A stretch of 64,000 nucleotides of DNA. Source: Gammaproteobacteria bacterium. Its GTDB lineage: Bacteria > Pseudomonadota > Gammaproteobacteria > Steroidobacterales > Woeseiaceae. Made by a program: the position numbers and the translations under genes. The stretch's first letter is position 1; the number at the start of each line of letters is the position of its first letter. The notes under the pieces are model-generated. The model searched no databases, was not told where the DNA came from, and saw nothing but the letters and a program-made list of their open reading frames with translations. This document shows positions 9,139 through 51,330 of this stretch, piece by piece. The stretch spans positions 1 through 64,000 of the forward strand of contig JAOUGX010000012.1 in NCBI GenBank assembly GCA_029865385.1. The letters run 5' to 3'.

Positions 9139-9225
9139 CGGAGTGACCCGTGAAAATCGAAACGCGCCGGAGCCGCACAGAAACCTTATGCATGCTGTCA
9201 GTGCGACGTCGAAAGCTTGCGCAGC

Positions 9226-9253: not shown

Positions 9254-9291
9254 TCCGCCACCCACTTTTGTCAACACAACTGGAATAAGCA

Positions 9292-9786
9292 ATGCCAATT
9301 ACCAGAACTCTCATGGCCCTCCTGATCGTCGCCGCTCCGCTGCAGCTCGTGGCCCAGGAAAACGACATAGGCGACATCGACATGGGCGCTTTGAACAGCG
9401 CCATCGCTGCCCAGCGACAGGTATCCGAGGCTCAGCGGCAGCTGATCGTCGCAGAAAACCTGACGCTCACCGAGAGCGAAAGCCTGGATTTCTGGCCCCT
9501 CTATCGGGAATATCGCGCCCAGGTTGCCAAGCTCGAAGATCGTTCGGTCGCCGTAATCACGCAGTTCGCCCGGGAATATTCCACGTTGGGAGACGAACAG
9601 GCGCTGCGCCTGCTGAACGATTCACTAAAAATCGATCTGGATCACGAGAAGCTGAAACAGCGCTACGTAAAGAAGTTCGCAAAGATCGTTCCTGGCGTCA
9701 TGGTTGGGCGATTCATGCAGATAGAAATGCGGCTCGACACGATCGCGCGGCTGAAGCTGCAGACGGCTATTCCGCTCGCAATGTAA
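9292..9786 (+). CDS. Small secreted helical protein of unknown function
   Basis: A 164-aa protein with a signal peptide (MPITRTLMALLIVAAPLQLVAQ). The mature part is predicted largely helical and charged, with the segment LTLTESESLDFWPLYREYRAQVAKLEDR followed by further amphipathic helices. The LTxxESxxFWPLYREY element recurs in small secreted proteins of proteobacteria that I cannot name; the overall style is loosely like Spy/CpxP-type periplasmic helical proteins, but the LTxxQ signature of that family is not clear. It is preceded by a candidate promoter and followed by the barrel gene at 9847. Confidence 0.7.
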   Translation: MPITRTLMALLIVAAPLQLVAQENDIGDIDMGALNSAIAAQRQVSEAQRQLIVAENLTLTESESLDFWPLYREYRAQVAKLEDRSVAVITQFAREYSTLGDEQALRLLNDSLKIDLDHEKLKQRYVKKFAKIVPGVMVGRFMQIEMRLDTIARLKLQTAIPLAM

Positions 9787-9846
9787 AGTCTCGCTCGGCG
9801 GGTTCCGGTATTCATTCTACAAAGGACAAATAAGGACATATAAACA

Positions 9847-10512
9847 ATGAGTGTTGCAAAGATAGCTTTCCTCCTCCTCGTACTACCGTCGATAAGCTTT
9901 GCCCAGGGCTATGGCCGCGGCGACAGGGCGCAAACCTGGGAATTCACGATCGGCGCGATCTACCAGGATGGCGAGAAGGCGGGCGGCACCGGCGGCTCAT
10001 CGCTGGATATGAAAAGCGAGCTCGGTTTCGCCTTCAACGTGGGTTACAACTTTACCAACAAGCTGGCACTGGGCGCGGATTTCAATTTCCTGCGCCCCAG
10101 TTATACCGCGATCATCGCCGATGAAAACGATCCCAATAACACGCAACGAATCGACCACACGTTGTCGCAATTCGATGGCCGCTTCAAGGGCACGTTCAAT
10201 TTCATGGAAGGGCCGTTCACGCCGTTTGCCGAGCTTGGCTTTGGCTGGACCCGGATCGATTCGAATGTCGCCGACGGACCGCCGGTTACCGGCTGCTACT
10301 GGCATCCGTGGTGGGGCTATATCTGCTCCGGCTACTACCGCACCTTCAAGGGCACGGAATTTTCCTACGGCGGCAGCCTCGGTTTGCGATACGATTTCGT
10401 GGGCGGCTCGTTCCTTCGCGGCAGCTACAGCGTTTACAAGCTGGATATCAGCGGCGACGCGGCCGATCCGCAACTGGATTCATTCAAGATCGAGTACGGC
10501 TGGCGCTTCTGA
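9847..10512 (+). CDS. Outer-membrane beta-barrel protein (OmpW/OmpA-barrel type), intact copy of block A
   Basis: A 221-aa protein with signal peptide (cleavage after SFAQ) and alternating amphipathic strands such as WEFTIGAIYQDG, FNVGYNFTNKLALGADFNFL and FAELGFGWTRID. It ends in EYGWRF, the C-terminal aromatic signal read by the BAM complex. Eight strands are plausible. A Cys-containing loop (TGCYWHPWWGYICSGYY) could form a disulfide. The gene has a second copy at 50661-51326 that carries two stop codons, so this is the functional member. The RBS AAAGGA/AAGGAC lies just upstream of the ATG. Confidence 0.85.
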   Translation: MSVAKIAFLLLVLPSISFAQGYGRGDRAQTWEFTIGAIYQDGEKAGGTGGSSLDMKSELGFAFNVGYNFTNKLALGADFNFLRPSYTAIIADENDPNNTQRIDHTLSQFDGRFKGTFNFMEGPFTPFAELGFGWTRIDSNVADGPPVTGCYWHPWWGYICSGYYRTFKGTEFSYGGSLGLRYDFVGGSFLRGSYSVYKLDISGDAADPQLDSFKIEYGWRF

Positions 10513-11736: not shown

Positions 11737-12996
11737 CTAGCCCTCCGGATCCGACCAGTCCACGTATCGGATGTCCTGCAAGTCGGTTGGTTTCGCGGGT
11801 ATCCACATCACGGCGCGTAGTCCGTCGGTAAAGTAGGGGTCCCCGGTCAGGTTGCCGCGCGGGCTTTCGATAGGCGCGGCGCCTACGCCGCCGACGTAGG
11901 CGAACCGGGACAACACCTGGTTGTAGGCAAGATTCTCGATCAGGAATTCGCGGGTCTCGTCCACGTCCGGATCGATCTTGTGCGTCGTGATCGTTTTCGT
12001 AGTGAACCGGACGCCGATATCACGACTGATCTGGCCGATCCAGACGGATTGACCCTGGAACGTCATGGGTGCAAGCCAGAGACGGAAATGATTGCGCTCG
12101 TTGATATTTTCGCGAATTCGCTGCAGAGCGATATCCTGGCGGCGCCCGAACACGTAAAGACTGCTCACCGGCGAGTAACGGTACTTGCCGCCGGTGAGGA
12201 ACGACATCGCAGTCCTCAGTCCGGAGGCTGCCGAGACCACTTCCGTCTCATCCCAGTCTGCGCGGATGACCGCATAGTATATGTCGAGAGGCTCCCCGAT
12301 GATGACCAGGTTCAGCGGGTCTCCGAAGTTCTCTCCCTTGGAGTCTTTGACGCAACAGGGCAACTGTTGCAGTGCCCTGATGAATTCCGCGGCGTCGGTG
12401 TAGTGAGAGATCTGATCGTCTGCGTACAGCGACTTGAAATCCACGTTTCCGTGGTCGGTAGCAAGACCGGGAACCGGCACGAAGAAGGTGAACTGCCAGG
12501 TATCATCGTCATTGAATACGTCGACATTGAAGGCCTTTGTGCCCTGGTCCAGTTCGGTGAACACGAAACCGGACCGGGTTTCACCGGGTCTGATTCCCAG
12601 GTTCACGCCGTTTCGCAGGAAATGCTGCTCCGCCTGCTGGCGCGCCGAGCTCTTGCGTGTCAGTGCCGCGACCTCCATCGGCGTGTGATAGTCGCTGTCG
12701 ACGCCGAACGGCAGAAACCATATATCCTCTGCGGTCATGTTCTCGATTTCAATCCAGACGGGCTGGATGCGCTTTCGGTACAGCGATATGCCGAACAAGT
12801 CGCGGGTTTCTCCTGCGTCCGGCACCGCGGTCGTAACCCGGATACCGTTCTCAACCTGCGTGACTGAGCGATCGCGGAAGGGTACCTGGTCGATCGTCTT
12901 GGGTTTGAAACCGCTGGCACATCCGGCGAGGCAAAGGGCGAGCACCGTCCCGGCAAACCAGCGCTTCGGTCGAGTGGGCGATGCCTGGCGAGTCAT
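11737..12996 (-). CDS. LssY_C-domain lipoprotein (first of an overlapping pair, block A)
   Basis: I start at the ATG at 12996 (MTRQASPTRPKRW...), giving 419 aa with lipobox LAGC; this ATG overlaps the stop of the upstream gene (ATGA), while the longer open frame lacks a signal. The second half resembles the LssY C-terminal domain: DPLNLVIIGEPLDIYYAVIRADW, YSPVSSLYVFGRRQDIALQ, FRLWLAP, GQSVWIGQISRDIG, and HKIDPDVDETREFL. LssY_C proteins are envelope-associated and of unknown biochemical role. A near-identical intact paralogue is at 51363-52622. A PCC motif (QLPCCVKDSKGE) precedes the domain in every copy here. Confidence 0.8.
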   Translation of the reverse strand: MTRQASPTRPKRWFAGTVLALCLAGCASGFKPKTIDQVPFRDRSVTQVENGIRVTTAVPDAGETRDLFGISLYRKRIQPVWIEIENMTAEDIWFLPFGVDSDYHTPMEVAALTRKSSARQQAEQHFLRNGVNLGIRPGETRSGFVFTELDQGTKAFNVDVFNDDDTWQFTFFVPVPGLATDHGNVDFKSLYADDQISHYTDAAEFIRALQQLPCCVKDSKGENFGDPLNLVIIGEPLDIYYAVIRADWDETEVVSAASGLRTAMSFLTGGKYRYSPVSSLYVFGRRQDIALQRIRENINERNHFRLWLAPMTFQGQSVWIGQISRDIGVRFTTKTITTHKIDPDVDETREFLIENLAYNQVLSRFAYVGGVGAAPIESPRGNLTGDPYFTDGLRAVMWIPAKPTDLQDIRYVDWSDPEG

Positions 12997-14189
12997 AGTC
13001 CCCACCGTGGCGGCAGGTCCCAGTCCTTTACATCGATATTCGCGACCGATAATGGCTCTGCGGACAGCCACAGGACGAGTCGATAACCATCGGTGAAATA
13101 CGGAGTATTGATGAGCCGTTCGAGGAACGATTCAGCCGGTACGACTGCCTTGCCAGCGAGCCAGCCTATCGACTGCAGCGCCTGTCCGTAGAGAAATTTC
13201 TGCATGGCGAAGTTGCGGGCACTGTCCACGTCCGGGTCAAAACGCCGCAGTGATCCGCCCAACACGTAAAAATGCTTGATTTGACCGAGCCAGACGCGAT
13301 CCTGTCCATACAGCATGGGCGCCAGCCAAAAACGGATTTCATACAGGCTGTCGCCCGCCGACGACTTGTACCTGAATATCGCGTCCTGCATTCGGCCGAA
13401 CAGGAATTGAGGCTGCTGCTCGGCGGCTTCCTTTGCCGAGGTTTCGATCCAGCCGCTGCGTAACAGCGCTTTCAGGAGCTCCGGGCCACTGCCCACGAGC
13501 ATGATGTTGACGGGTTCACCGGCGGTATCGCCGCTCTGGTCCGTGCTGCAGCAGGGCATGGCCCGCAACGCGTCGACGACCTGCTCATCGTCGTAGGCGG
13601 TTAGCTCTTCCGCAGAATAGATCGAAGCAGCGTCGAAGTTCGCGTAGTCGGGTACGAAGCCCGGAACGCGGAGCAAGAAGGTAAAACTGGACGGGGCGCC
13701 GGAGCCGAACACGTCGACATTGAAGCCCTTTGCACCCGCGGCGATATGTGTAAAGACAAATCCGGAACGGCTCTCCCCGGGGTCGACGTACCGCGGCATG
13801 GCGAGTTTGTTGAATCGCTCTTCCATCTCCGATCGGCCCTCATCCGAGTATCCGCCGCGGTTCTTGTACGCGACTTCGAGGGGAGAAAAATAGTAGCGGT
13901 CCGTACTGACCACGGCATACCGTGCCAGGGAATTGGTGGAATTCCGGATCTCCATCCAGACCGGCTGGATGCCCTGTTTGTACAGATCGATGCCAAACAC
14001 CGCCGTGGTTTCTTCGCGCCCCAGCACGGCCGCCGAGACCTGGACGCGGGCATCGGATTGCGATTCCGCCCGCTCGCGAAAATCACTCCGCTCGACCGCC
14101 TCGTACACGTAGGCGCGGCCTCCGCATCCGGCTAAAACGGCGGTACCGGCAAGAATCGCTAGCGTAAGACAGAGCGGTATTTCTCGCAT
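12993..14189 (-). CDS. LssY_C-domain lipoprotein (second of the pair, block A)
   Basis: A 398-aa lipoprotein (signal ending TAVLAGC) that is clearly related to its downstream partner: it shares REETxxxFGIDLYKQGIQPVWMEI, a PCCSTDQSGD motif, GEPVNIMLVGSGPELLKALLRSGW, a FLFGRMQDA element and PYFTDGYRLVLWL. It belongs to the same LssY_C group but is shorter around the FGR segment. The two genes overlap by 4 bases and must be one transcription unit. A shrunken relic of this gene remains in block B at 52619-53176. Role unknown; a partner complex with the other LssY_C lipoprotein is a reasonable inference. Confidence 0.78.
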   Translation of the reverse strand: MREIPLCLTLAILAGTAVLAGCGGRAYVYEAVERSDFRERAESQSDARVQVSAAVLGREETTAVFGIDLYKQGIQPVWMEIRNSTNSLARYAVVSTDRYYFSPLEVAYKNRGGYSDEGRSEMEERFNKLAMPRYVDPGESRSGFVFTHIAAGAKGFNVDVFGSGAPSSFTFLLRVPGFVPDYANFDAASIYSAEELTAYDDEQVVDALRAMPCCSTDQSGDTAGEPVNIMLVGSGPELLKALLRSGWIETSAKEAAEQQPQFLFGRMQDAIFRYKSSAGDSLYEIRFWLAPMLYGQDRVWLGQIKHFYVLGGSLRRFDPDVDSARNFAMQKFLYGQALQSIGWLAGKAVVPAESFLERLINTPYFTDGYRLVLWLSAEPLSVANIDVKDWDLPPRWGL

Positions 14190-14449: not shown

Positions 14450-15493
14450 TCAGCGGAAGACGAGCGTAACGAGAATAACGATGACGTAGACGACGGGGAA
14501 CGCCCAGCGGCTTGCCCGGTCGAGCATCGCCGCCGCCGCGACACGCCCGTTGCCTGCCAGCGCGCCGGTCGTAAGCGCCTCGACCAGGGCGAGGAATACC
14601 AGCACCGACGACGACAGCAGGTATCGGTCCATGGCGGTGAGATACCCCACTTTCGGTAACAGGTCGTTGACCGTGAACTGATAGGCGATCAGTGTGAGCA
14701 TCGATGTAGCCGCGAGCTGCAGCTGTGCGCTGAGCTGGCGCGCATCGATCCAGAATACTGACCAGGACATCATGACGATCAGGCACAGCGGCAAGACGAA
14801 TTTATAAATGTAGTAATCGGCCAGCCGCGACGCAGGGATCCGGAACTCGTAGATCGATACTTCCCGGTCGATGCTTTGCAAGCTCAGTGTGCTAACGTCG
14901 GCGGTCGGCTCGCCAATGGCCCAGTCGGGAATCGTGAGCGTCGCAGCCCGTCCCGTCCACGGCCCGGATATTTGGAGCGGCAGTTCCGCCGCGTCATGCT
15001 GCAGGCTGACGGCCTGCAGGACGATGTCGTTCGTGTCGAACGGAAAGTCTTTCAGATGCCACGGGCTTGTCACTGTGCCTTCGTAACGGACCGTACTGAT
15101 GACTCTGCCATCCGCCTCGACGAGCACCTCCGGCGGCCGGCGGCTTCGTATCGTTCCGGAGTTGATCAGCTGCATCTCCGGCGTCCAGATTGCCGTGTAG
15201 GGGTAACGGCAACCGGGCGCGTTCACGAGGCGATGATCGGTCCATTCCATCGTCAACAGTACATCCAGCGCCACGGTCTGATCGACGTCGTTTATGGCCA
15301 TCAGGTCGGCCAGAATCAGCCCGATCGTGACTTCCGTTGCTGTGCCCGCCGGATCAGGGCGAACGGAGGGCCGATAATCAGCCAGATCACAGGTCGCAGC
15401 GTCGCGATTCTCCGCAAGGCACGGCAAAGCAACGGAGGCGCCGCAGGCGACGGCGACCAGTAACAGTTTACGGAGCGGTATCGCGGGTATCAT
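14450..15493 (-). CDS. Pentameric ligand-gated ion channel (Cys-loop receptor family, GLIC/ELIC-like), channel 1
   Basis: A 347-aa protein with signal peptide, an extracellular beta-sandwich and four C-terminal membrane helices, the layout of prokaryotic pentameric ligand-gated channels. Diagnostic features are WTDHRL (residues 84-89), IWTPEMQLINSG, and the Cys-loop-equivalent FPFDTN at 150-155 without the bracketing cysteines. M1 is about 228-248, M2 254-276, M3 290-310 and M4 330-346. M2 ends in DLLPKVGYLT, aligning with ELIC/GLIC LPK. By that alignment the pore position -2', Glu in GLIC, is Ser here and 2' is Gln. The ligand is unknown. The gene diverges from the double-barrel gene at 15603, so both may share the 15494-15602 region. 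Confidence 0.92.
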   Translation of the reverse strand: MIPAIPLRKLLLVAVACGASVALPCLAENRDAATCDLADYRPSVRPDPAGTATEVTIGLILADLMAINDVDQTVALDVLLTMEWTDHRLVNAPGCRYPYTAIWTPEMQLINSGTIRSRRPPEVLVEADGRVISTVRYEGTVTSPWHLKDFPFDTNDIVLQAVSLQHDAAELPLQISGPWTGRAATLTIPDWAIGEPTADVSTLSLQSIDREVSIYEFRIPASRLADYYIYKFVLPLCLIVMMSWSVFWIDARQLSAQLQLAATSMLTLIAYQFTVNDLLPKVGYLTAMDRYLLSSSVLVFLALVEALTTGALAGNGRVAAAAMLDRASRWAFPVVYVIVILVTLVFR

Positions 15494-15602
15494 TGATCAG
15501 TAGTCCGCATTGCCAATTGATCGCCACCTTGTCACGCTCCTGACTGAAGATTGCGAAATCGACTTCTGGCCGGCAAAAATACCAGAGATACCCAGAAAAA
15601 GA

Positions 15603-17216
15603 ATGATGTTTGTCCCCCGGATGGTTCGCAAAGTGTCGGCACCGTGGTTCCGCCACGGCGCATCCGCCGCGCGCGCCTGCCGGATCGCTGCCCTGTTGCC
15701 GGGGATCATCGCGTCTCCTGCCGGTATTGCGGCACCGTTACTGGATTCTCTGCGGAAAGTCGATCTCAACGATTACGCGCTCGGTATCGGTATCTCGACC
15801 TCGAACAACCCGTATGCGGGTACCGACTATTCCCGGTACCTCTTTCCGTACCTGACGAGCCTGCAGGATTCGACGCTCACGGAGAACACGCTGCTGCTGG
15901 AGGGCAGCGAGATCGGCGGCCGCCTGTTCAGCCCGAATTCCGACTGGGAGTTCGGAGTCATCGGGCAATTGCAGACCCTTGGCTTCGGTCCCGACACCGG
16001 GCCGGCGCTTGCCGGCCTTCGGCCGCGCGGCTGGACGCTGGAGGCCGGCGGCATGGTCGGTTGGCGGGGCGGGCCGGTGCAGGTCAACCTGAAGCACTAT
16101 TGGGAACTGCTTGGCCGGCACCCGGGAACGATGCAGGAGTTACGTTTCTCCTACCCGCGCGAACTGAAGCAAGGCCACATCGTGCCGTTCCTGAGCCTCC
16201 AGCGGCAAAGCAGTGACTACGCGAATTACTACTTCGGCATCACGCCCGACGAAAGCGCGCCGGATCGAAAGGCCTACGAACCCGGCAGCGCGTTGAATGT
16301 CATCGCCGGCGTTCGCTGGGGCTATCGGGTGAGCCCCGACTGGCTGCTGTCCGTGAGCGCCAGGATGCAATACTGGGACGATGCGATCACGCAGAGTGAC
16401 CTCGTCGACAAGGACTACACCGGCTCCTTGTCGGTGGGCCTCGCCTATAACCGGGCGCTGTTCCGCCGCCATCAACCGGCTGAACCGGACTCCAGGCTGG
16501 TGCGCTGGGAGCTGTCGGCCGCCTATATCGATGCTCGCATCAACAGCATCCAGCGCGTCGACGGCGATCTGCTGGGCGGGGGGAGCCCGCTCAACCTCGA
16601 GGATTCGCTCGGACTTTCGGAACGGGACAAACTGATTGCAGCAAGGCTGGTCTGGCGTTTCGCCTACTATCATCGCTTCGAGGCCGAATACCTGCGCATC
16701 TCGCGGCAGGGTTCTGTGTTGCTGGATACGCCCGTCATTCTTGCTGACACGACGCTCGCAACCGGAGATCGCGTGCTGACCGATTCGTTGCTGGAGTTTT
16801 CGCAGGCGAGCTACGGTTACTCGGTCATCCGCGACGCACAGAAGGAAGCCGGAGTGACCGTTGGACTGCACGTGCCGACGGTGCGATTCCGCCTGACTGA
16901 CAGTGAATCGAATGTTGTGCAGAGCGTACGGGCGGCGCTGCCGCTTCCTGTCCTTCGCGTGTTCGGCAAACTGGCGCTGCCGGTCGATCTGTTCCTGCGG
17001 GCCCGTGCGCAGTTATTCATGCTGGATGTGGACAATTATGACGGTTACATGACCAAGCTTGACCTTGCGCTGGATTATGCACCGATCGACCGGCTGGCCC
17101 TGTCGATCGGCTGGATCGCGTATCGCCTGAACCTGGAGGCGGCCGACGAAGACTTTCGTGGCCGGCTCAAGGTCGACTACCGCGGTCCGCAGATTGCGGC
17201 GAGCCTGAGCTTCTGA
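15603..17216 (+). CDS. Fused outer-membrane protein: MipA/OmpV barrel plus a second barrel
   Basis: A 537-aa protein from the ATG at 15603. Residues about 45-300 match the MipA/OmpV family: GIGISTSNNPYAGTDY, ALAGLRPRGWTLEAGGMVGW, NYYFGITPDESAPDRKAYEPGSALNVIAG and QSDLVDKDYTGSLSVGLAY. From about residue 320 the sequence changes to the other barrel family seen at 10636 and 60032 (SLGLSERDKLIAARLVWRF, EYLRISRQGSVLLD) and ends in ASLSF, with a C-terminal Phe. Its length, twice a MipA protein, and the two distinct homologies argue for a genuine fusion of two barrels. MipA proteins scaffold murein synthesis or act as porins; the role of the fusion is unknown. Confidence 0.82.
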   Translation: MMFVPRMVRKVSAPWFRHGASAARACRIAALLPGIIASPAGIAAPLLDSLRKVDLNDYALGIGISTSNNPYAGTDYSRYLFPYLTSLQDSTLTENTLLLEGSEIGGRLFSPNSDWEFGVIGQLQTLGFGPDTGPALAGLRPRGWTLEAGGMVGWRGGPVQVNLKHYWELLGRHPGTMQELRFSYPRELKQGHIVPFLSLQRQSSDYANYYFGITPDESAPDRKAYEPGSALNVIAGVRWGYRVSPDWLLSVSARMQYWDDAITQSDLVDKDYTGSLSVGLAYNRALFRRHQPAEPDSRLVRWELSAAYIDARINSIQRVDGDLLGGGSPLNLEDSLGLSERDKLIAARLVWRFAYYHRFEAEYLRISRQGSVLLDTPVILADTTLATGDRVLTDSLLEFSQASYGYSVIRDAQKEAGVTVGLHVPTVRFRLTDSESNVVQSVRAALPLPVLRVFGKLALPVDLFLRARAQLFMLDVDNYDGYMTKLDLALDYAPIDRLALSIGWIAYRLNLEAADEDFRGRLKVDYRGPQIAASLSF

Positions 17217-17557
17217 AACCGGATCCCGCTGCGCACGGTATCGCGACTGAACGACGGACGGTCCTGGATTCGCAAGCTCGGCGTGAGCGAGAACCGGCGG
17301 ACCCCGCGCACCGATGACAACCACCGGACGCGCCTTCCGGCATCCGCATGGGAACGCCGGGAGAAAGGTCCACCGCCTTGTCGTCGCCCGGCCAATGCCC
17401 GGAACGATGCCCGGCCGGCGAAGAGCCGAAGAAACAATCTATTACGAACTCACCGTGGACAGGCCCGGCCGAATCCTCTAACTTCCACCGGCTGACAATT
17501 TCTACGAATGGGGCCGATGTGCCATCGGCCGCAGCCAAACAACCAGGATCCAGGACA
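17217..17557. other. Intergenic region, no gene seen
   Basis: 341 bases between the double-barrel gene and the DUF3313 lipoprotein. Open frames through it have no signal peptide, domain or ribosome site. The promoter of the downstream lipoprotein is expected here but no convincing hexamers were found. Confidence 0.5.
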
Positions 17558-18295
17558 ATGAATACAGGCAGAACAGTCAAAACCGCACTCCTGTTGGGAG
17601 CGATCGTCATCGTCTCGGCATGCGCTACCGCTAGCGGTCCCGCGGAGATCGACACCAGCGAAGGTGCCGAACTTTCTTTCGACGGGCTTTACCCGGTCAA
17701 GAACACCAGCCGCTTCACCAAGGTCTGGGCGCGAGAGGGTTTCGATCTCTCCGGTTACACGAAGATCCTCTTGCAAGGAGGCGGCATCGAGTATCGCCCG
17801 GTGAAAAACGTCAGTCGCACGGCCATTTCGAGATCGTCAGCCTCCGAGTTCCCGGTCTCCGAGAAGACAAAGGCCCAGGTGCGCGATATTTTTGCGAAGG
17901 CGTTTACTGACGAGCTTGCCAATGTCCGTGGCTTCGAGGTTGTTACCGAACCCGGCCCTGATGTCCTGATCGTGCGCGGCTACCTTTTGGATGTCGTGTC
18001 CAAGGTTCCGCCGGAACCGATCGGCAGGAGCGAGATCTACCTGTCGTCGGTCGGCGAGGCGACCCTTGTCATCGAACTCGTTGACCCCGACAGCGAAGCG
18101 GCACTGCTGCGGGCGATACAACGAGGCGTTGCCGGTCGCAATCGATCGGGCAGTCTCGATATGACGACAGCGATCTGGTCCAATCCGGTCACCAATATGG
18201 CGGAAGTGCGACGGCTGGCGAGCTCATGGGCGACGAGGGTGCGCAGCGGACTCGAAGAACTGGCCGACACCTATAAGATCGGCACCGAGAGGTGA
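17558..18295 (+). CDS. DUF3313-type lipoprotein
   Basis: I start at the ATG at 17558 (MNTGRTVKTALLLGAIVIVSAC), giving 245 aa with lipobox VSAC; the open frame reaches 17348 but without any signal. The mature part has the DUF3313 look: LSFDGLYPVKNTSRFTKVWAREGFDLSGYTKILLQ near the start, then VRDIFAKAFTDELANVRGFEVVTEPGPDVLIVRGYLLDVVSKVPPE and an SSVGEATLVIELVDPDSEAALLRA strand. The family is composed of uncharacterised periplasmic lipoproteins. It stands alone between two intergenic regions and precedes the phosphatase-superfamily gene. Confidence 0.8.
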   Translation: MNTGRTVKTALLLGAIVIVSACATASGPAEIDTSEGAELSFDGLYPVKNTSRFTKVWAREGFDLSGYTKILLQGGGIEYRPVKNVSRTAISRSSASEFPVSEKTKAQVRDIFAKAFTDELANVRGFEVVTEPGPDVLIVRGYLLDVVSKVPPEPIGRSEIYLSSVGEATLVIELVDPDSEAALLRAIQRGVAGRNRSGSLDMTTAIWSNPVTNMAEVRRLASSWATRVRSGLEELADTYKIGTER

Positions 18296-18422
18296 GCCGC
18301 CCGGCACGGGCCCGTCAACGACGAATCGCGGACTACCCTCGCAGCCGGCGGGAGACGCCTGGTCGGATAAGCGGCGAAAGCCACGCATCATTGCAGCCGG
18401 CGGGCGGGATCCAAAAGATCCA

Positions 18423-20135
18423 GTGACAAAGAACAGGCACAGAGCCATCTCGGCCCTGTCGATCGGGGCCGCATGCCTTTTAGCTACAGTGGCAGGTCAG
18501 GCCGGCGACCGCGCGCCGCCCAGGCTCGTGCTGCAAATTACCGTCGATGCCCTGCGCGGCGACCTGCCCACGCGTTACGCGCATGTCCTCGGATTCGAAG
18601 GTTTCCGTTTCCTGATGGACGAGGGCGTGAATTACACGAACGCCAACTATGAGCACGCCAACACCGAGACCATCGTCGGGCACGTATCCCTTGCCACCGG
18701 CTCGGTACCGGCAGCCCACGGCATGGTCGGCAACGTCTGGTTCGATCGGGAACAGGGCCGGCTCGTTTATAACATCGAGGATGCCCGCTACGCTTTACTG
18801 ACCGCCGGCGGCGACGTCGATAGCGGCACGGAAATCGATCCGACGCAGAAAGCGGCCGGGGTCGAAGGCCGTTCGCCTTCGGCGATCCTGTCCTCGACGT
18901 TCAGCGACGAACTGGCCGTGCATTTCGCCGGCAGGTCGAAGATCTTCGGCGTCTCGGTCAAGGACCGTGGCGCGGTGTCGCTGGCCGGGCACGCCGGCAA
19001 GGCATTCTGGTTCTCGAAGGCCACGGGCGAGTTCGTCACCAGCACCTACTACTACCCGCGCTATCCGGACTGGGTCAACGAATGGAATGCTCGCAAGCCC
19101 GCGGCGGCCTATGCCGGCAAGTCCTGGGAGTTGCTGCGCCCGTCGTCAAGCTACCTGTTCGGCGATGCCGACGATCGCGACTATGAGACTGACTTCCCGG
19201 GTTTCGGTCGTACCTTCCCGCATGCGTATGGCGAGGCGGGCGACAAGTACCTGACGACGCGCCTCACGCTCGGCCCGGCCGGCGATGAGCTCACCCTGGA
19301 CTTCGCGAAGACCTTGCTCGACAAGGAGAAGCTGGGTGAAGACGAGGTACCGGATTACCTCGCAGTGAGTTTTTCATCGACCGACTATGTCGGTCACCTG
19401 TTCGGTGCAGCGAGTCTCGAGAGCGAGGACAACATGGCGCGGTTGGATCGCACGCTGGCCGACCTGCTCGCTTACGTTGACAGCAAAGTCGGTCTTGCCA
19501 ACACGCTGATCGTGTTGTCGGCCGATCACGGCCAGCCCGAGGTGCCGGGTCACCTGGCGGAGCGAGGCATCAATAATGCGCATTACTTTGACACCGGCAC
19601 GCTGGACAGGGCGCCGGCAATTAGCGCACTGAAAAAGCAATTCGGGATTGGCCAGGAACTGATCGAAGCGTTCTTCCAGCCCTACCTGTATCTTGACCGG
19701 GACGTGATTCGGGATAAGGGGCTGGACCAGGCCGCGGTGGAGCAGGCAGTCGCCGGGGAACTCATGAAATTCGAGGGGGTGGCGGCCGCCGTGTCGAGTA
19801 CGGCGCTGCGCACGGCCAGCCTGCCCGACACGCTGTTGATGCGTTCGATCCTGCGCAATTTTCATCCTAAACGATCGGGCGATATTTATCTCGTGTTCGA
19901 GCCGAACGTGTTCATCAACGATTTCGATGGGCTTACGGTGGCGTCGGTACACGGATCGCCGTGGCGATACGATACCTTCGTGCCGGTCATCTTCGCGGGC
20001 GCCGGTATCGAGGCTGCGACGGTGAGCCGTTCGATCACGCCCTACGACATCGCGCCAACGCTCGCCGGCTTCCTCGGCGTCAAGCCGCCGTCGTCCGCAA
20101 TCGGCAACCCTTTGCAGGAAGTGCTCGGCAACTGA
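18423..20135 (+). CDS. Periplasmic alkaline phosphatase superfamily enzyme (PafA/phosphodiesterase type)
   Basis: A 570-aa secreted hydrolase of phosphate mono- or diesters. It opens with a signal peptide after a GTG start at 18423. Metal and catalytic elements are in the expected order: QITVDALRGD (Asp 42), ANTETIVGHVSLATGS (Thr 83 as likely nucleophile, as in the TxxxH motif of nucleotide phosphodiesterases), VSFSSTDYVGHLFG (Asp and His ligands), VLSADHGQPEVPGH (Asp-His pair) and a C-terminal VHGSPWRYD with the last His ligand. The acidic active site is therefore complete. Whether it is a phosphatase (PafA-like) or phosphodiesterase cannot be settled by eye. No obvious Shine-Dalgarno precedes the GTG. 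Confidence 0.88.
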   Translation: MTKNRHRAISALSIGAACLLATVAGQAGDRAPPRLVLQITVDALRGDLPTRYAHVLGFEGFRFLMDEGVNYTNANYEHANTETIVGHVSLATGSVPAAHGMVGNVWFDREQGRLVYNIEDARYALLTAGGDVDSGTEIDPTQKAAGVEGRSPSAILSSTFSDELAVHFAGRSKIFGVSVKDRGAVSLAGHAGKAFWFSKATGEFVTSTYYYPRYPDWVNEWNARKPAAAYAGKSWELLRPSSSYLFGDADDRDYETDFPGFGRTFPHAYGEAGDKYLTTRLTLGPAGDELTLDFAKTLLDKEKLGEDEVPDYLAVSFSSTDYVGHLFGAASLESEDNMARLDRTLADLLAYVDSKVGLANTLIVLSADHGQPEVPGHLAERGINNAHYFDTGTLDRAPAISALKKQFGIGQELIEAFFQPYLYLDRDVIRDKGLDQAAVEQAVAGELMKFEGVAAAVSSTALRTASLPDTLLMRSILRNFHPKRSGDIYLVFEPNVFINDFDGLTVASVHGSPWRYDTFVPVIFAGAGIEAATVSRSITPYDIAPTLAGFLGVKPPSSAIGNPLQEVLGN

Positions 20136-20420
20136 CGCAACAGGTTCTTATGCCAAACAACAGTTCGCACTGATAAAAGTACAGGACGGGTGAATTGTTG
20201 TCGCCCGGGGCTGCTTAAGGTAACCTTCGGGCGCTTACCGACATCGGTCGGTCGACGCCCCGGCAAGAGTTCCACGGCAGGCGCGGCGTTCTGAATATCT
20301 AAAGAGTAATAAATTTCGGCAGCAATTCAGCAACGATAACGACCGCCAGACCTGGCTTCTTCTCGGCCATCGATTGCACGCCGGAATATCGCTTACCGTA
20401 CTTATACCGAGGAGACGTAA

Positions 20421-21971
20421 ATGTTTTCGAATAGCTGTAACCGCTTGGTCGGGCTGCTCGCCGCAGGTTTCCTGCTGGCGTCCTGGGCAGGCAGCGCCAG
20501 TGCAGCCGACAAGCCCAACGTGGTCGTGATCTGGGGCGATGACATCGGTTACTGGAATCCCAGTGCCTACCATCGGGGCATGATGGGGTACGAGACGCCA
20601 AACATTGACCGTATCGCCAACGAAGGCGCGCTGTTCACCGACTGGTATGGCGAGCAGAGCTGCACCGCCGGACGTTCGGCGTTTCTCACCGGGCAGAGCG
20701 GCTTTCGCACCGGCAACCTCAAGGTCGGCCTTCCCGGCGCGCAAGAGGGATTGCAGGCCCGGGACGTTACGCTGGCCGAGTTGCTGAAGGCGCAAGGCTA
20801 CAATACGGCGCAATTCGGCAAGAATCACCTTGGCGATCTCGACGAGCACCTGCCGACGAACCATGGCTTCGACGAATTCATGGGCTCGCTCTACCATCTT
20901 AATGCTGAGGAGGAGCCGGAAAATCCCGACTATTTCAAGGATCCGGCGTTGATCAAGAAGTACGGCACCCGCGGCGTGATCCACACCTTTGCCGATGGCC
21001 GGATCGAGAGCACCGGGCCGCTGACGAAAAAGCGCATGGAGACCATAGATGACGAAGTGACGGAGGCCGCGCTGGATTATCTCGATCGCGCCAAGAAGGC
21101 CGACAAACCCTTCTTCCTCTGGTGGAACTCGACCCGCATGCATATCTGGACCCACCTCAAGAAAGAGTCGGAGGGTGTGACTGGCCTCGGCATTTATCCG
21201 GATGGGATGGTCGAGCACGATGCTCACGTCGGCCAGATCCTCGACAAGCTCGATGAACTTGGTCTCGCTGAAAACACCATCGTCATGTATTCGACCGACA
21301 ACGGTGCAGAGGCGATGAGCTGGCCGGACGCCGGCACAACGCCCTTCCGTGGCGAGAAGAACACCAACTGGGAAGGCGGCTACCGCGTGCCTACCGTTAT
21401 TCGGTGGCCCGGCGTCATCAAGCCCGGCACCGTCAATAACGGCATCTTCTCGCACATGGACATGTTGCCCACCATCATGGCGGCTGTAGGCGTTCCCGAC
21501 GTCAAAGAGCAGCTCATGAAAGGCATGAAGGTCGGCAAGAAGACCTTTAAAGTGCACCTCGACGGCTACAACGCGATGGACGCCCTGGCCGGGAAGAGCA
21601 AGTCCCCGCGACACGAATTCTTCTATTTCAATGACGACGGCTCGCTCGTGGCATTGCGCTATGACCAGTGGAAGCTCGTATTCCAGGAGCAGCGTGCGCA
21701 TGGCTACGAAGTCTGGCAGGACCCGTTCGTGACCTTGCGCTTCCCGAAACTCTTCAATCTCCTGACCGATCCGTTCGAGCGGGCCGATCATGAAGGTATC
21801 GATTATCCGCGCTGGCGCCTGGAGCACGCGTTCCTGCTCGTCCCGGCGCAGGAATACGTCGGGCGGTTCCTGGCAACATTCAGGGAGTTCCCGCCGAGCC
21901 AGAAAGTCGGAAGCTTCAGCCTTGACAACGTGATGAAGGCGCTGTCGGAGCCGCCACCGGGCAGCAACTGA
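20421..21971 (+). CDS. Periplasmic arylsulfatase, type I (formylglycine) sulfatase
   Basis: A 516-aa exported sulfatase that hydrolyses sulfate esters. After a signal peptide (SASAAD) come KPNVVVIWGDDIGY (Asp 40-Asp 41 metal ligands) and SCTAGRSAFLTG, the C-x-A-x-R maturation motif whose Cys 81 would be oxidised to formylglycine. Further conserved elements are QFGKNHLGD, KPFFLWWNSTRMH, YSTDNGAE (Asp-Asn ligands) and WEGGYRVPTVIRWPG. GAGGAG lies 8 bases before the ATG. A strong terminator follows at 22010-22042, so it is probably monocistronic. No formylglycine-generating enzyme gene is seen nearby. Confidence 0.93.
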   Translation: MFSNSCNRLVGLLAAGFLLASWAGSASAADKPNVVVIWGDDIGYWNPSAYHRGMMGYETPNIDRIANEGALFTDWYGEQSCTAGRSAFLTGQSGFRTGNLKVGLPGAQEGLQARDVTLAELLKAQGYNTAQFGKNHLGDLDEHLPTNHGFDEFMGSLYHLNAEEEPENPDYFKDPALIKKYGTRGVIHTFADGRIESTGPLTKKRMETIDDEVTEAALDYLDRAKKADKPFFLWWNSTRMHIWTHLKKESEGVTGLGIYPDGMVEHDAHVGQILDKLDELGLAENTIVMYSTDNGAEAMSWPDAGTTPFRGEKNTNWEGGYRVPTVIRWPGVIKPGTVNNGIFSHMDMLPTIMAAVGVPDVKEQLMKGMKVGKKTFKVHLDGYNAMDALAGKSKSPRHEFFYFNDDGSLVALRYDQWKLVFQEQRAHGYEVWQDPFVTLRFPKLFNLLTDPFERADHEGIDYPRWRLEHAFLLVPAQEYVGRFLATFREFPPSQKVGSFSLDNVMKALSEPPPGSN

Positions 21972-22009
21972 GGTCGCGCTGACCATAGCGGTCAGTCGTC
22001 ATATCGGGT

Positions 22010-22042
22010 CGCACCTGTTCCAGTCAGGTGCGGCTATTTTTT
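22010..22042 (+). terminator. Rho-independent terminator after the arylsulfatase gene
   Basis: CGCACCTG (22010-22017) and CAGGTGCG (22025-22032) form a perfect 8-bp stem with a 7-base loop, followed by GCTATTTTTT to 22042. It lies 39 bases after the sulfatase stop codon and is a textbook intrinsic terminator on the plus strand. Confidence 0.9.
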
Positions 22043-22103
22043 CGCAGCGGCGGCATCAGCAACGCCTCGCTCTGCGATTCGCAAACCAGCTGTTTTCCTG
22101 TCG

Positions 22104-24614
22104 ATGAAAAACGGGCGGTTGATCGACTCAGAGCACGTCGAAACACGCGGCATCCTGTGGCGCGGCCTGCTGCTTTTGATCTCCGGCGCCGCTGCGCTCA
22201 TCTATCAGGTTCTCTGGATCAAGCAGCTGACGCTCATCGTCGGCGTTGATGTGTACGCGGTCACAACCGGAATCTGTGCGTTCTTTGCGGGACTTGCACT
22301 GGGCGGTGTGTTGCTCGGGCGCTGGGCTGATCGGGTAACGCGGCCGTTGAGATGCTATGCGGCGCTCGAGTTTGGCGTTGCTCTCGTCGGCGTTGCCGTA
22401 ACGGCCGCGCTCGCGCATTCGGCATCTCTGTTTGCGACGCTGGATAGGTCGAGCAGCGTAATCGCCTGGGCGCTGATCTTTTTTCTGGTCGGTGTCGGAC
22501 CATTCCTGATGGGTGGCACATTGCCGGCAATGGTTCGCTCGCTGAGGCTGGACGCAGATCAGATCGGCAGCGGAGGTGGAAGGATGTATGCGGCCAATAC
22601 CGCCGGCGCGATCATTGGTGCCCTGCTTGCTTCCTTCCTGCTGATTCCGGCACTCGGCATCCAGGGCACAGCGCTCTGCGCCGCATGCATCGGCATGCTC
22701 GCCGCCGGCGGTGCGTTATGGCTCGATCATTTCTCACCAAGACAAGGCGTGGCCGCGCAGCGGGCGGCGCCAGAGCCGATGACAAAAGCCGCATTGATTG
22801 CCATTCTTTTCTACATGATTGCCGGAGGCCTGGCGCTTGGCTATGAAGTGGTCTGGTCGCAGTCGATCGTGCAGTTCATGAGCACCCGAACCTATGCGTT
22901 CACAGTCATGCTGGCGACCTATCTTGCCGGTCTCGCTTCGGGCGCGGCCCTGTTTGCAGGCCGGGCCGATCGCGTTCGAGATCCATGGAGCATGTTCGGC
23001 CTGCTGATTGCGGCGGCCGGTGCGGTTGCGTTGCTTGAAGTCGGCCTGCTCGGGCCGTGGCTGCCCGCACTGCAGTCAGCGGTGGATCAGGCGGTGTTTA
23101 CGCTGACCTCTAGCAGGCTGGCTGGCATGTGCGCGCGCTTTGCCGTCGCGGCACTGTATATCGTCTTTATTCCCACGCTTCTGCTCGGTGCCGCGTTTCC
23201 GGCGGCGATAAAACTGATCGTCGATGCCGGGCATGTCGGGCGCGATATCGGCAAAGTGGTAGCGCTGAATACCCTCGGCGGCATCGTCGGCACAGCAATG
23301 ACAGGGTTCGTGTTAGTACCGCAACTCGGTTTGGTGAGAACACTTGCGGTTCTCGGCGTCGTCGCTGCAGTACTCGGCTTGCTGGCAGCTATGCGAGGCG
23401 GGGCCGGTTTTCGTACTGCCCGGCGGGGCGCGGTTGCCATCGCCGTCGTAGCGGCGACCGTTGCCTGGCTGACGCCGTCTGATCGTCTGGCCGTCCTGCT
23501 TGCCGATGCGCGCGGCGGCACGATGGTTTTTTATGAAGAAGGCAAGGGCGGCACCGTCGCGGTTCTCGAGCAATCCGCCGGAAAAAAACAATTCCGTCGT
23601 TTGTATATTCAGGGCGTCTCGAATACCGGTGACAGCCTGCCTTCGCTTCGCTACATGCGTTTGCAAACCCTGCTGCCGCTCATCATCCATAACGGCGAAC
23701 CGAAGGCGGCGCTCGCAATCGGTCTCGGTACCGGCATTACCGCGGGTGCCATGCTGCGCTATCGATCGTTGCAGCAACGCGTGGTTGCCGAGTTGTTACC
23801 CGAAGTTCGCGAAGCGGCCCGGTACTTCGAAGGAAATTATGCGGCGGCGACGGTCCCGGAACTGGACATCCGCCTGCGCGATGGCCGGCGCGAACTGTTG
23901 AGCAGCCAGCAAACGTATGACCTGATCACGCTCGAACCGCCGCCGCCATCCGCCGCCGGTGTCGTGAACCTGTATTCTAGCGACTTTTATGCACTGGCGA
24001 GCGCCCGCCTGCGCCCAAAGGGCCTGGTCGCGCAATGGCTGCCGTTGCCGACACAAAATGAAGACGACACGCGCTCGCTGGTGCGGAGTTTTCTCGATGT
24101 GTACCCGTATGCAACGCTCTGGACCACAGAGCTACACGAAATGTTGTTGATCGGATCGATGCAAGCGATCGAACTCGATGTGCCATCGATCATCGAGCGC
24201 TATGAACAGAACGAAGTCAAGACAGCCCTGCGCGAGGTGGGCATTGCGTCGCCCCAAGCGCTGCTGGCTACGTGGGTTACCGACCGCAACGGCCTTGAAA
24301 CGTATGCCGAAAGCGCCCGGCCGGTTACCGACGACCAGCCGCGCATCGAGTACGCCGACTGGGTTCGTTACGATGAGTTGCAGCGTGTGCTGCCGAACCT
24401 GATCGCGTTGCGCACCGATCCGCCGTTGCAGGGCGCCGATACGGAATTTGCCTGGGCCGTAGCGGCACAGCGCCAGACGCTGCTGCTGTTCTACCAGGCG
24501 GCCCTGAATGCTGCTGCGGGTCATCGGGATCTTTGGGCGCGGGACATGCAACGGGTATTCGTGCGCGAGCCCGACAACGCCTACTATCGATGGTTCGGCG
24601 CCGGAAACGAATGA
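22104..24614 (+). CDS. Membrane protein with C-terminal spermidine-synthase-like domain
   Basis: An 836-aa protein in two parts. The first ~430 residues are highly hydrophobic, with helices in two related halves (ALIYQVLWIKQLTLIVG and GLALGYEVVWSQSIVQF), typical of the transporter-like region fused to polyamine-synthase domains. The C-terminal part (~480-720) has a Rossmann methyltransferase-like fold: ALAIGLGTGITAGAML (glycine-rich loop), VVAELLPEV, LDIRLRDGRRELLSSQQTYDLITLEPPPP, and LYSSDFYALASARLRPKGLVAQWLP. In SpeE the acceptor aspartate sits in a DxxD segment; here LEPPPP replaces the usual D-x-x-D/P, so polyamine activity is doubtful. Substrate unknown. Confidence 0.85.
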   Translation: MKNGRLIDSEHVETRGILWRGLLLLISGAAALIYQVLWIKQLTLIVGVDVYAVTTGICAFFAGLALGGVLLGRWADRVTRPLRCYAALEFGVALVGVAVTAALAHSASLFATLDRSSSVIAWALIFFLVGVGPFLMGGTLPAMVRSLRLDADQIGSGGGRMYAANTAGAIIGALLASFLLIPALGIQGTALCAACIGMLAAGGALWLDHFSPRQGVAAQRAAPEPMTKAALIAILFYMIAGGLALGYEVVWSQSIVQFMSTRTYAFTVMLATYLAGLASGAALFAGRADRVRDPWSMFGLLIAAAGAVALLEVGLLGPWLPALQSAVDQAVFTLTSSRLAGMCARFAVAALYIVFIPTLLLGAAFPAAIKLIVDAGHVGRDIGKVVALNTLGGIVGTAMTGFVLVPQLGLVRTLAVLGVVAAVLGLLAAMRGGAGFRTARRGAVAIAVVAATVAWLTPSDRLAVLLADARGGTMVFYEEGKGGTVAVLEQSAGKKQFRRLYIQGVSNTGDSLPSLRYMRLQTLLPLIIHNGEPKAALAIGLGTGITAGAMLRYRSLQQRVVAELLPEVREAARYFEGNYAAATVPELDIRLRDGRRELLSSQQTYDLITLEPPPPSAAGVVNLYSSDFYALASARLRPKGLVAQWLPLPTQNEDDTRSLVRSFLDVYPYATLWTTELHEMLLIGSMQAIELDVPSIIERYEQNEVKTALREVGIASPQALLATWVTDRNGLETYAESARPVTDDQPRIEYADWVRYDELQRVLPNLIALRTDPPLQGADTEFAWAVAAQRQTLLLFYQAALNAAAGHRDLWARDMQRVFVREPDNAYYRWFGAGNE

Positions 24615-24800
24615 AGGTGTCATCAGGTATTGGCCCATCGGCGACCTGCAAACCGGGGCGAAGGTCCCGGGCATGGGATCTGAACGCTGGATTTGTCGGC
24701 GAATCATTTCGCCCGCTGCATAAACGGCCGCGATTCGGCCGCAAACGAAACCTTGTAGAATGGTGAAAAATTCTCTGAACGCACGTACCGGCAAGGATCC

Positions 24801-25238
24801 ATGCGCAACGCGCTTGTAATTCTCTCGATTGTCACGCTGCTTGTTTTGTGGCAGGCAGGTTGCACTGTCATCGACAGCAGGCCTGCGGAACAGCGAAGCA
24901 GCGCCGCCGTCAAAGCGGATGCGTCCGTAAGAAAGCATTGTTTTCGAAACGAGTATCCATTCGGGGATGCGATGGACGTCGAGGAATTGATCGTCGTCAT
25001 AGACGGTCACCGCGTGACCGGCGAGTACAACTGGGTACCGGCTTACAAGGACAGGCGGCTGGGCCGATTTACCGGCACGCTGCATGGCAACACGATCAAT
25101 GCCGACTATGCGTACCAGCAGGAAGGACAATCGGCGACAACCGCGATTTCGATAACTCTCGAGGAACAACAGGCCACCGTCAAAGGTGGGCCGCGGGAAC
25201 TCGGGCTTGACAGGAGCTTGCGGCGCGCGGCCTGCTGA
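24801..25238 (+). CDS. Small lipoprotein of unknown family
   Basis: A 145-aa protein with a lipoprotein signal (LLVLWQAGC, lipobox QAGC). The mature domain has a conserved look with KHCFRNEYPFGDAMDVEELIVVIDGHRVTGEYNWVPAYKDRRLGRFTGTL and a beta-strand pattern, plus two further cysteines (C at ~46 and the last residue). I recognise no family. The gene precedes the second ligand-gated channel by about 200 bases on the same strand, so it could be co-transcribed, but the spacing is loose. Confidence 0.6.
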   Translation: MRNALVILSIVTLLVLWQAGCTVIDSRPAEQRSSAAVKADASVRKHCFRNEYPFGDAMDVEELIVVIDGHRVTGEYNWVPAYKDRRLGRFTGTLHGNTINADYAYQQEGQSATTAISITLEEQQATVKGGPRELGLDRSLRRAAC

Positions 25239-25441
25239 GACAGTCTCCGCGGCGAAGTGTTCGAGCGGACCATTCCGCATTCGTCGTCGCGACGGCCGGT
25301 TCCCGGCTCGTAGTCGCCGACGCGCCGTAGTGGCAGGATTTGCATCCCGGCGGGTGATGACTTGTCATCGAGATTCATGGATATTCTGCCAATGAACGCA
25401 CAAACGAGTTACGATTTCTCCAGCCCCGATCCTGGTTGCCG

Positions 25442-26485
25442 ATGAGAACCTCGCGCAAATCCGTTTTTGCAACGGCGCTATACTTCTTGCTGACATTCCT
25501 GAATACCGCTCTGTCTGCGCAGGGTGTCGACTCGATGGGTTCCGACCGCATCGGTGACCGGCCGAATGCGGCAGGGGGGCCGACGATCGTGTCCGTCGGC
25601 CTGTACGTGATCGACATTGATGCTATCGATGATGCCGAACAGCGTTTCAGTGCGGACCTGTTCGTCAATATCGGCTGGCAGGACCCGCGTCTGGCGCTGC
25701 CGGAAGGCCAGCGATCCGGCAAGAACCGGACTCTACCCCTGAGTGACATCTGGTCGCCCCGCGGATTGATCGTCAATGACCGTGGAATGAGCACGCAATT
25801 GCCACGCGTCGCCGATGTCGACGACCTCGGCAACGTTCAATATCGGCAGCGCCTGACCGGCGACCTGGCCGTTGATCTCGATCTCAGGGAGTTTCCTTTC
25901 GATACACAGCGTTTGCCGATCGACATTATTTCCTACCAGTACTCACCGGATAGCCTGCGGCTCGTCTCGAATGCTGCCATCGCTCGCAGTGACGGTCTGT
26001 TCAGTGCCGAGGGTTGGCATTTCCGCATGCTCGAACCGGAGACCGGTGACTTCACCATACCGGCCGCGGGAGTCGTTCGGCCGCAATTGAACTACGTCAT
26101 GGAAGCACGCCGCAAAGTTCCGTATTACCTCGTAACGATATTTCTGCCGATATCGCTGATCATCTTCATGTCCTGGATGGCATTCTGGCTGCGGCCGGAT
26201 ATCGTTCCGGTACGCATTGGCATCTCGACGACTTCGATTTTTTCCATTATTGCCTTCGGTTTCAGCATCCGCCTGAGTTTGCCGCCGGTTTCTTACATGA
26301 CGCGAGCCGATATGTTTGTCGTCGGGTGCATGGTGATGGTTTTCCTTGCATTCGGCGTAGCGGTTATTGGCAGTCGCTGGGCTTCCTCCGATCGCCTGGA
26401 GCAGGCGCTCCGGCTGAACGTCATCGCGCGCTGGGTTTACGTCGGCATGTTTGGCGTCATCGCCGCAGCCGCGCTCGTATTTTGA
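25442..26485 (+). CDS. Pentameric ligand-gated ion channel, channel 2, with anion-channel-like pore motif
   Basis: A 347-aa relative of channel 1, from the ATG at 25442. It has a signal peptide, then the extracellular sandwich (NIGWQDPRLALP, SDIWSPRGLIVND) and the Cys-loop-equivalent FPFDTQRL at 151-158 without cysteines. M1 is about 227-249, M2 256-278, M3 290-310 and M4 329-347. The M2 start is P256-V257-R258-I259-G260, aligned by the following LPPVSYMT with the P-A-R-V-G entry of vertebrate glycine and GABA-A receptors, where Pro at -2' and Arg at 0' go with anion selectivity. GLIC has Glu at -2'. So this is a candidate anion-selective channel, by inference from motif only. Two paralogues within 12 kb is unusual. 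Confidence 0.92.
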   Translation: MRTSRKSVFATALYFLLTFLNTALSAQGVDSMGSDRIGDRPNAAGGPTIVSVGLYVIDIDAIDDAEQRFSADLFVNIGWQDPRLALPEGQRSGKNRTLPLSDIWSPRGLIVNDRGMSTQLPRVADVDDLGNVQYRQRLTGDLAVDLDLREFPFDTQRLPIDIISYQYSPDSLRLVSNAAIARSDGLFSAEGWHFRMLEPETGDFTIPAAGVVRPQLNYVMEARRKVPYYLVTIFLPISLIIFMSWMAFWLRPDIVPVRIGISTTSIFSIIAFGFSIRLSLPPVSYMTRADMFVVGCMVMVFLAFGVAVIGSRWASSDRLEQALRLNVIARWVYVGMFGVIAAAALVF

Positions 26486-28702: not shown

Positions 28703-29350
28703 TTATCTTTTGATCAGCTTGTCGCTCGACATCGCACGCACGATCGCTTTTGCTTCATCAACGAACACAGAGTAATCACCGAACCTGTCAAGACCCTCGG
28801 TAACCTGCCGTTCGGAAGCGATCGCCCAGACCTTCTCCTGGCTGTCGGCAGAGAACAGGTCTGTCTCCAACGCCACGTCGTGCCGGTGTTGTATGATCGC
28901 CGGCTCGACGTACTCGGTTAATTCGACGCTGAAAACATCGTAATAATAAGTTGGCCGGATGTTGTACGTTGCCTGCGGCCGCATGTCCGTAGACTTGCTG
29001 CTTGTATCAAAACTGATTATTTGAGTGACGAGAACCGCATCCGCGTTGGTCCTTTCCACCAGTTCCAGCAATGTCTTCCGATTGACCGGCGTGCGTGAAT
29101 CCGCCAGCGAAGTCATCGCAACGGCCTTGATGCCACGATCTTCAAGTTGTTTGACGATCTCCTGCTCGAGGTACCTGCGATTATCGAAAGACTTGAAAAG
29201 CGAAAGAACCAGAATATTTCCGTATGGAGCGCCTGCAGATTCTGACAGCGGCGTCAGCCGCGTGATCTTTGGTCCTGAGGCGCAGGCTCCGAGAATGATG
29301 GCGAACATCGCCAGCGTGCTTATGCGCTGCAATAGTTTATTGATTGTCAC
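28703..29350 (-). CDS. Lipoprotein with TolB-N/GNA1162-like fold
   Basis: A 215-aa lipoprotein starting at a GTG at 29350 (MTINKLLQRISTLAMFAIILGAC, lipobox ILGAC). The mature region reads as an alpha/beta domain: YGNILVLSLFKSFDNRRYLEQEIVKQLEDRGIKAVAMTSL, then LVERTNADAVLVTQII, and KVWAIASERQVTE. This is the style of the GNA1162/DUF799 or TolB-N-like lipoproteins that act in envelope assembly. I am confident of a lipoprotein but not of the subfamily. It is convergent with the MliC gene, 29 bases apart. Confidence 0.7.
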   Translation of the reverse strand: MTINKLLQRISTLAMFAIILGACASGPKITRLTPLSESAGAPYGNILVLSLFKSFDNRRYLEQEIVKQLEDRGIKAVAMTSLADSRTPVNRKTLLELVERTNADAVLVTQIISFDTSSKSTDMRPQATYNIRPTYYYDVFSVELTEYVEPAIIQHRHDVALETDLFSADSQEKVWAIASERQVTEGLDRFGDYSVFVDEAKAIVRAMSSDKLIKR

Positions 29351-51326: not shown

Positions 51327-51330
51327 CGAC

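Follow-up and report, generated by a model that had tools for sequence, protein, structure and literature searches.

Two pentameric ligand-gated ion channel genes in a Woeseiaceae genome, one from a bacterial clade with a probable anion-type pore

The DNA analysed here, a 64,000-nucleotide stretch of a Woeseiaceae contig that we call the window, carries two genes for subunits of pentameric ligand-gated ion channels (pLGICs), channel 1 and channel 2, whose principal features are collected in Table 1. Both translated proteins match the Neur_chan_LBD domain (E 1.8e-17 for channel 1 and 4.9e-19 for channel 2) and the Neur_chan_memb domain (E 1.5e-13 and 1.8e-11, respectively) above the Pfam gathering score in every case, and their membership in the pLGIC family is therefore far beyond chance. 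AlphaFold2 models built with alignments of relatives as input contain an extracellular beta-sandwich and four helices in both channels, with mean pLDDT of 81 (channel 1) and 84 (channel 2), and Foldseek matches both models to GlyR, GABA-A and GLIC at E about 1e-26. We did not retain the ranking of these fold matches as evidence for anion selectivity, as the top matches of channel 1 are also GlyR and GABA-A, mixed with GLIC. The proline of the Pro-loop between beta6 and beta7 is present in both proteins within the tetrapeptide FPFD. The two channels share 27% identity, channel 1 is 57-66% identical to its relatives L007 and L010, and a search of the genome (3.92 Mb, 99.96% complete) found no third pLGIC. 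For channel 2 the likelier start is an in-frame ATG at 25442, two codons past the TTG, which gives a protein of 347 residues that would open with a signal-peptide-like stretch. Channel 1 also has two extracellular cysteines outside the Pro/Cys-loop, at residues 35 and 95 (15389-15391 and 15209-15211, minus strand); all seven full-length proteins in the channel-1 group alignment keep both, the channel-2 clade has neither, and a periplasmic disulfide between them close to the N-terminus is possible.

Table 1. Channel genes and pore features, in positions of the window
Feature	Position	Strand	Basis and remarks
Channel 1, pLGIC subunit	14450..15493	-	347 aa; PF02931 and PF02932 above cut-off; AlphaFold2 model; relatives L007, L010
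Channel 1 Pro-loop tip FPFD, residues 150-153	15035..15046	-	alignment with nAChR, GlyR, ELIC, GLIC
Channel 1 M2, -2' to 24', residues 255-281: SAQLQLAATSMLTLIAYQFTVNDLLPK	14651..14731	-	alignment; predicted helix 254-278
Channel 2, pLGIC subunit	25436..26485	+	349 aa from TTG; PF02931 and PF02932 above cut-off; AlphaFold2 model; 16-member clade
Channel 2 Pro-loop tip FPFD, residues 153-156	25892..25903	+	invariant in clade alignment
Channel 2 M2, -2' to 24', residues 258-284: PVRIGISTTSIFSIIAFGFSIRLSLPP	26207..26287	+	gapless alignment to GlyR/GABA-A; predicted helix 257-280
Channel 2 Arg0' codon (R260), cytoplasmic pore end	26213..26215	+	16/16 in clade
Channel 2 Arg19' codon (R279), periplasmic pore end	26270..26272	+	16/16 in clade, 3/32 elsewhere

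M2 was numbered from a gapless alignment to the PDB sequences of GlyR and GABA-A, in which PVRIG of channel 2 lies on PARVG of GlyR and R-L-S-L-P-P on R-A-S-L-P-K. The channel 2 pore reads P-2' V-1' R0' I1' G2' Thr6' F9' R19' P23' and contains the Pro-2'/Ala-1'/Arg0' filter in the form PVR, in which Val replaces Ala, and position -1' is free of acid. The channel 1 pore reads S-2' A-1' Q0' L1' Q2' Thr6' L9' Phe16' N19' D20'; the acidic intermediate ring at -1'/-2' is absent from channel 1 and from L007 and L010 (Gly-2', Ala/Pro-1'), and all three carry an acidic outer ring in the form of Asp20'. Neither channel has the Glu-2' of GLIC or the Glu-1' of ELIC. The first-pass annotation had described both genes as pLGICs with an extracellular sandwich, FPFD and four helices, and here Pfam domains, alignment and AlphaFold2 agree. 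Its M2 alignment was likewise correct, including Ser-2' and Gln2' in channel 1 and the lack of the GLIC Glu in both proteins; a P-V-R lying outside the start of M2, which it had named as grounds for abandoning the reading, is not what we find, P-2' being residue 258 in a predicted helix of residues 257-280. Missing from that annotation was Arg19' of channel 2, a second GlyR-like ring.

The pore features of channel 2 are those of a clade of 16 distinct gammaproteobacterial members, which we compared with 32 other bacterial pLGICs. Arg0' occurs in 16/16 clade members vs 19/32 of the others and Arg19' in 16/16 vs 3/32 (L111, L112 and L114, all with Gln0'), so that the two arginines together are found throughout the clade (16/16) and in none of the comparison set (0/32). 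Pro-2' is present in 13 of the 16 members, the rest having two Ala and one Gln, and in 0/32 others; all 16 are free of Asp and Glu from -4' to 22', as are 11/32 of the others, and Phe9' is invariant (16/16). Searching the named genomes with the channel-2 alignment as query returned 18 loci, and with the single channel-2 protein none; the closest loci belong to MAGs labelled Gammaproteobacteria, Lysobacterales/Xanthomonadales, Woeseiaceae and Chromatiales. pLGICs are rare in the sampled genomes, since a PF02931 search found them in only 12/107 genomes of the family, 21/396 of the order sample, 12/369 of the class sample and 7/399 of the phylum sample. As to a mobile origin of the channels, no viral relative was found, and the single plasmid match, from Legionella adelaidensis, is 24% identical; both origins were set aside. 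One family genome, G233 (L066, L067, L058), has four pLGIC matches, a single 4.4 kb contig holding two of the four, and carries a divergent type with Ala-Gln-Gln at -2' to 0' (L018, L027) beside a channel-2-type gene.

The phylogeny was inferred in IQ-TREE under LG+C20 from 49 rows, with four animal references (GlyR, GABA-A beta3, nAChR alpha7 and 5-HT3A); the GlyR and GABA-A beta3 sequences were taken from the PDB alignments, and those of nAChR alpha7 and 5-HT3A were checked against PDB chains, which they matched across the whole query or nearly all of it. The channel-2 clade has support of 100/100 and lies within a bacterial group (29 rows, support 100/97) to which channel 1 belongs as well, with GlyR and GABA-A outside that group and GLIC and ELIC on long branches. 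L111, L112 and L114 are weakly supported as neighbours of the channel-2 clade (54/84). Profile searches gave the channel-2 clade scores of 165.5 bits against GlyR, 149.6 against GABA-A, 142.4 against GLIC, 116.4 against ELIC, 82.5 against 5-HT3A and 78.0 against nAChR, and removal of M2 reduced the margin of GlyR over GLIC from 23 bits to 6.5 bits (127.4 vs 120.9). Among the control profiles, the channel-1 and 'mpc' groups scored best against GLIC and the ELIC-like group against ELIC, and the L111/L112/L114 group scored best against GlyR by a margin of only 2 bits. These scores agree with a predicted anion-type pore in channel 2.

Channel 2 is probably anion-permeable, because its clade keeps Arg0' and Arg19', mostly Pro-2' and no acid, a combination lacking in the 32 other channels, and because of published pore results for nAChR, GlyR and ELIC. 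Earlier mutagenesis, as cited in PMC4055736, converted nAChR into an anion channel when Pro-Ala replaced the M2 Glu; the GlyR filter is formed by P-2'/A-1'/R0', with Arg0' turned from the lumen (PMC7385131); and ELIC without Glu-1' lets small anions pass (PMC3119659). The evidence in the pore lies in the absence of an acid from -1'/-2', in Pro-2' and in Arg19'. Arg0' alone is not evidence of anion selectivity, because the 0' residue is basic in 19 of the 32 other bacterial channels, Arg and Lys at 0' are together 79% conserved over all pLGICs (PMC4795631), and nAChR alpha7 and 5-HT3A, both cation channels, have Lys/Arg at this position in our alignment. The first-pass annotation had taken Pro-2' and Arg0' as the mark of anion selectivity, of which the proline stands and the arginine by itself does not; its proposal of an anion-type channel beside a differently selective one holds insofar as the channel 2 signature is conserved and channel 1 is different, but the selectivity of channel 1 is not readable from its sequence. 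A cation- or non-selective channel 2, whose Arg0' would turn away from the lumen like that of other pLGICs and whose selectivity would be determined elsewhere, for instance by the negative extracellular domain, is an unlikely alternative that nonetheless carries real weight. It draws on the frequency of Arg0' in all kinds of bacterial pLGICs, on the Arg0' of ELIC, a measured cation channel, and on the doubt cast over motif-based prediction in prokaryotes (PMC4795631), as well as on the net negative charge of the extracellular domain. That charge is negative in every channel-2 clade member (-4 to -18) and in most groups, and we dropped it as an uninformative clue to selectivity; we also dropped a rough model that derived the pore potential from ring charges, after its own controls failed, GABA-A beta3 coming out negative. 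Against a non-anionic channel 2 stands the acid that ELIC, GLIC, nAChR alpha7 and 5-HT3A all have at -1' or -2' and the channel-2 clade lacks, together with the acid-free span from -4' to 22' and the Arg19' of every clade member. On balance we lean slightly towards a clade that is truly chloride-selective, with a GlyR-like filter of Pro-2', Arg0' and Arg19' that would have been built independently of animals.

That independence bears on a further alternative, in which the animal anion receptors have the channel-2 clade as their true sister group in bacteria and the anion-type pore is shared by descent, through old inheritance or transfer. GlyR remains the top match of the clade even without M2, by the small margin given above, and channel 2 and GABA-A beta3 are alike at loop B (SYQYSPD and SYGYTTD, respectively), but the tree placement opposes such a union, an AU test of the channel-2 clade joined to GlyR/GABA-A rejects it (p-AU 0.0098), the clade lacks the Cys-loop cysteines, and the combination of Arg19' with Gln0' in L111, L112 and L114 suggests stepwise change inside bacteria. 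With the few animal references of this tree, descent of channel 2 from the animal or eukaryotic anion-receptor clade was not found, and we regard shared descent as improbable. Because channel 2 falls among bacterial channels in the tree and the AU test rejects its union with GlyR/GABA-A, the match to the GlyR/GABA-A pore is likely convergent, having arisen within bacterial pLGICs in parallel to animals; we hold this as likely and no more because of the four animal references and the long branches of GLIC and ELIC. The further suggestion in the first-pass annotation, that the two genes form a sensory pair, is not supported by a co-occurrence check in 107 family genomes. Channel-2-type genes occur in eight of these (G000, G020, G179, G214, G216, G233, G275, G280) and channel-1-type genes in three (G000, G176, G246), and both types meet only in G000, the genome of this window (one genome of the 107 observed, about 0.2 genomes expected by chance); other mixtures of pLGIC types occur in G216, G233 and G246. 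A conserved sensory pair of opposite selectivity could appeal to the position of the genome's sole two pLGICs 10 kb apart and to the related G246, which likewise carries two pLGICs within 20 kb, in a rearranged form of the gene cluster found here, but seven family genomes have the channel-2 type only and two the channel-1 type only, the genes here lie on opposite strands with unrelated flanking genes, and the second channel of G246 belongs to another clade. The region is moreover rich in duplications and contains a transposase gene, so that clustering can be genome plasticity, and a conserved pair seems very improbable.

The surrounding region is a cluster of envelope-protein genes (LssY_C, MipA, DUF4136, DUF3313, sulfatase, phosphodiesterase, DUF481, Ysc84, AsmA and MscK-like). 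A rearranged relative of it lies on contig 12 of G246 (L060, L061), from another genus, with two pLGICs, one of them channel-1-type at 66% identity; in the window and in G246 alike the two pLGICs fall within 20 kb, and the shared envelope genes include the sulfatase (71% identical), MipA (67%) and DUF481 (63%) genes, at 11737-14189, 15510-17216 and 28703-29350 of the window. A MipA-type barrel is found within 15 kb of the channel-1-type gene in 3/3 genomes that have one, at 17 bp and divergent by longest ORF here, at 1.3 kb in G176 and at 13 kb in G246. This local linkage is no more than a lead, because such barrels are common in the family, including genomes without pLGICs, and we therefore dropped the conserved neighbourhood as a functional clue. 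A scan for promoters and terminators gave numbers at or below chance. In G176 (L059) a gene for a small secreted protein (8894-9388), related to window 9292-9786, runs 14 bases into the start of the channel-1-type gene (9375-10445) on the same strand, possibly as an operon; its counterpart in the window is about 5 kb from channel 1 and on the other strand. Elsewhere in the window, the segment 9901-13716, with genes for an OmpA-type barrel and LssY_C lipoproteins, is duplicated about 40 kb away at 50718-52963 in the same orientation and at 84-85% identity; the copy excludes channel 1, its barrel ORF is broken, its second LssY_C gene is a remnant, and a transposase gene (49144-50472) lies just before it. 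A second repeat pair (44744-46653 and 59307-62274, 80-81% identical) carries a DUF4136-like lipoprotein gene and a DUF481-like gene, and its copy at 44744-46653 appears broken into fragments.

Taken as a whole, the explanation that we favour, with moderate confidence, is a bacterial clade with a convergent two-ring anion-type pore, to which channel 2 belongs, and a channel 1 of another lineage. We infer that the products of both genes would assemble into pentamers in the inner membrane, as channels whose ligand-binding domain is periplasmic and whose pore is lined by M2. A small periplasmic ligand would open channel 2, and chloride or other small anions would then pass along their gradient through a pore predicted to have positive rings at its cytoplasmic (Arg0') and periplasmic (Arg19') ends, usually Pro-2' and no acid between. 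The putative ligand site of channel 2 has Phe at loop D and two Tyr at loop B (SYQY, with SYGY in GABA-A and SFGY in GlyR), the alignment contains no aromatic loop C motif, and a small amine or amino-acid-like ligand is our guess. Channel 1, with Leu at both the loop D and the loop B position, represents another lineage of the same bacterial group and is no recent duplicate. Its sequence cannot fix its selectivity; because its cytoplasmic entry lacks both the acidic intermediate ring and Arg0', it may be weakly cation-selective or poorly selective, and Asp20' argues mildly for cations.

GLIC and ELIC, well-measured bacterial pLGICs, are cation channels, and we found no measured bacterial anion-selective pLGIC in the open-access literature. 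With the whole GlyR-type pore signature in a protein of about 347 residues, the question of bacterial anion channels becomes directly testable; if channel 2 passes chloride, it would offer an independent replicate of charge-selectivity evolution in the pLGIC superfamily and a simple bacterial model for the GlyR/GABA-A pore. From M2 charges, Tasneem et al. 2004 (PMC549065) predicted that bacterial pLGICs would comprise cation-selective as well as anion-selective members. The anion-type prediction was based on one position of A-[R/K] type, in six sequences, in contrast to the 16-member clade, two-ring signature and absence of acid described here; the six may include members of the channel-2 clade. 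What is new is a defined bacterial clade with a complete predicted two-ring anion-type pore signature, together with evidence of convergence.

Compared with known channels, channel 2 resembles GlyR and GABA-A beta3 in the P-x-R-[VI]-G motif at -2' to 2' (GlyR), in Arg0' with Arg19' and no acid at -1'/-2', in S-L-P at 21'-23' and in the aromatics at loops D and B. It differs from them in lacking the Cys-loop cysteines, with Leu replacing Cys after the Pro-loop (REFPFDTQRL vs KNFPMDVQTC) and zero Cys in the translated extracellular domain, and in lacking the long M3-M4 loop and the loop C aromatics, while its clade has Val, Pro, Ala, Ser or Thr at -1' and Phe9' vs Leu9', and stands separate in the tree. 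Channel 1 is ELIC-like from 2' to 16' (Gln2', Thr6', Leu9', Tyr14' and Phe16', in the M2 pattern M-L-T-x-x-A-Y-x-F), but has Ala-1' and Gln0' vs Glu-1' and Arg0' in ELIC, and no aromatics at loops B and D. The cation-selective ELIC of Dickeya/Erwinia is itself without an acidic outer ring at 19'/20', whereas GLIC, nAChR alpha7 and 5-HT3A have one. GLIC, the proton-gated cation-selective pLGIC of Gloeobacter, gives channel 1 its best sequence match in the PDB (E about 1e-31) and is also the best match of the channel-1 group profile, and the two share the Cys-less loop and the short M3-M4 loop; they part at the pore, where GLIC has Glu-2', Asn0' and Glu19' and channel 1 has Ser-2', Gln0' and Asp20'.
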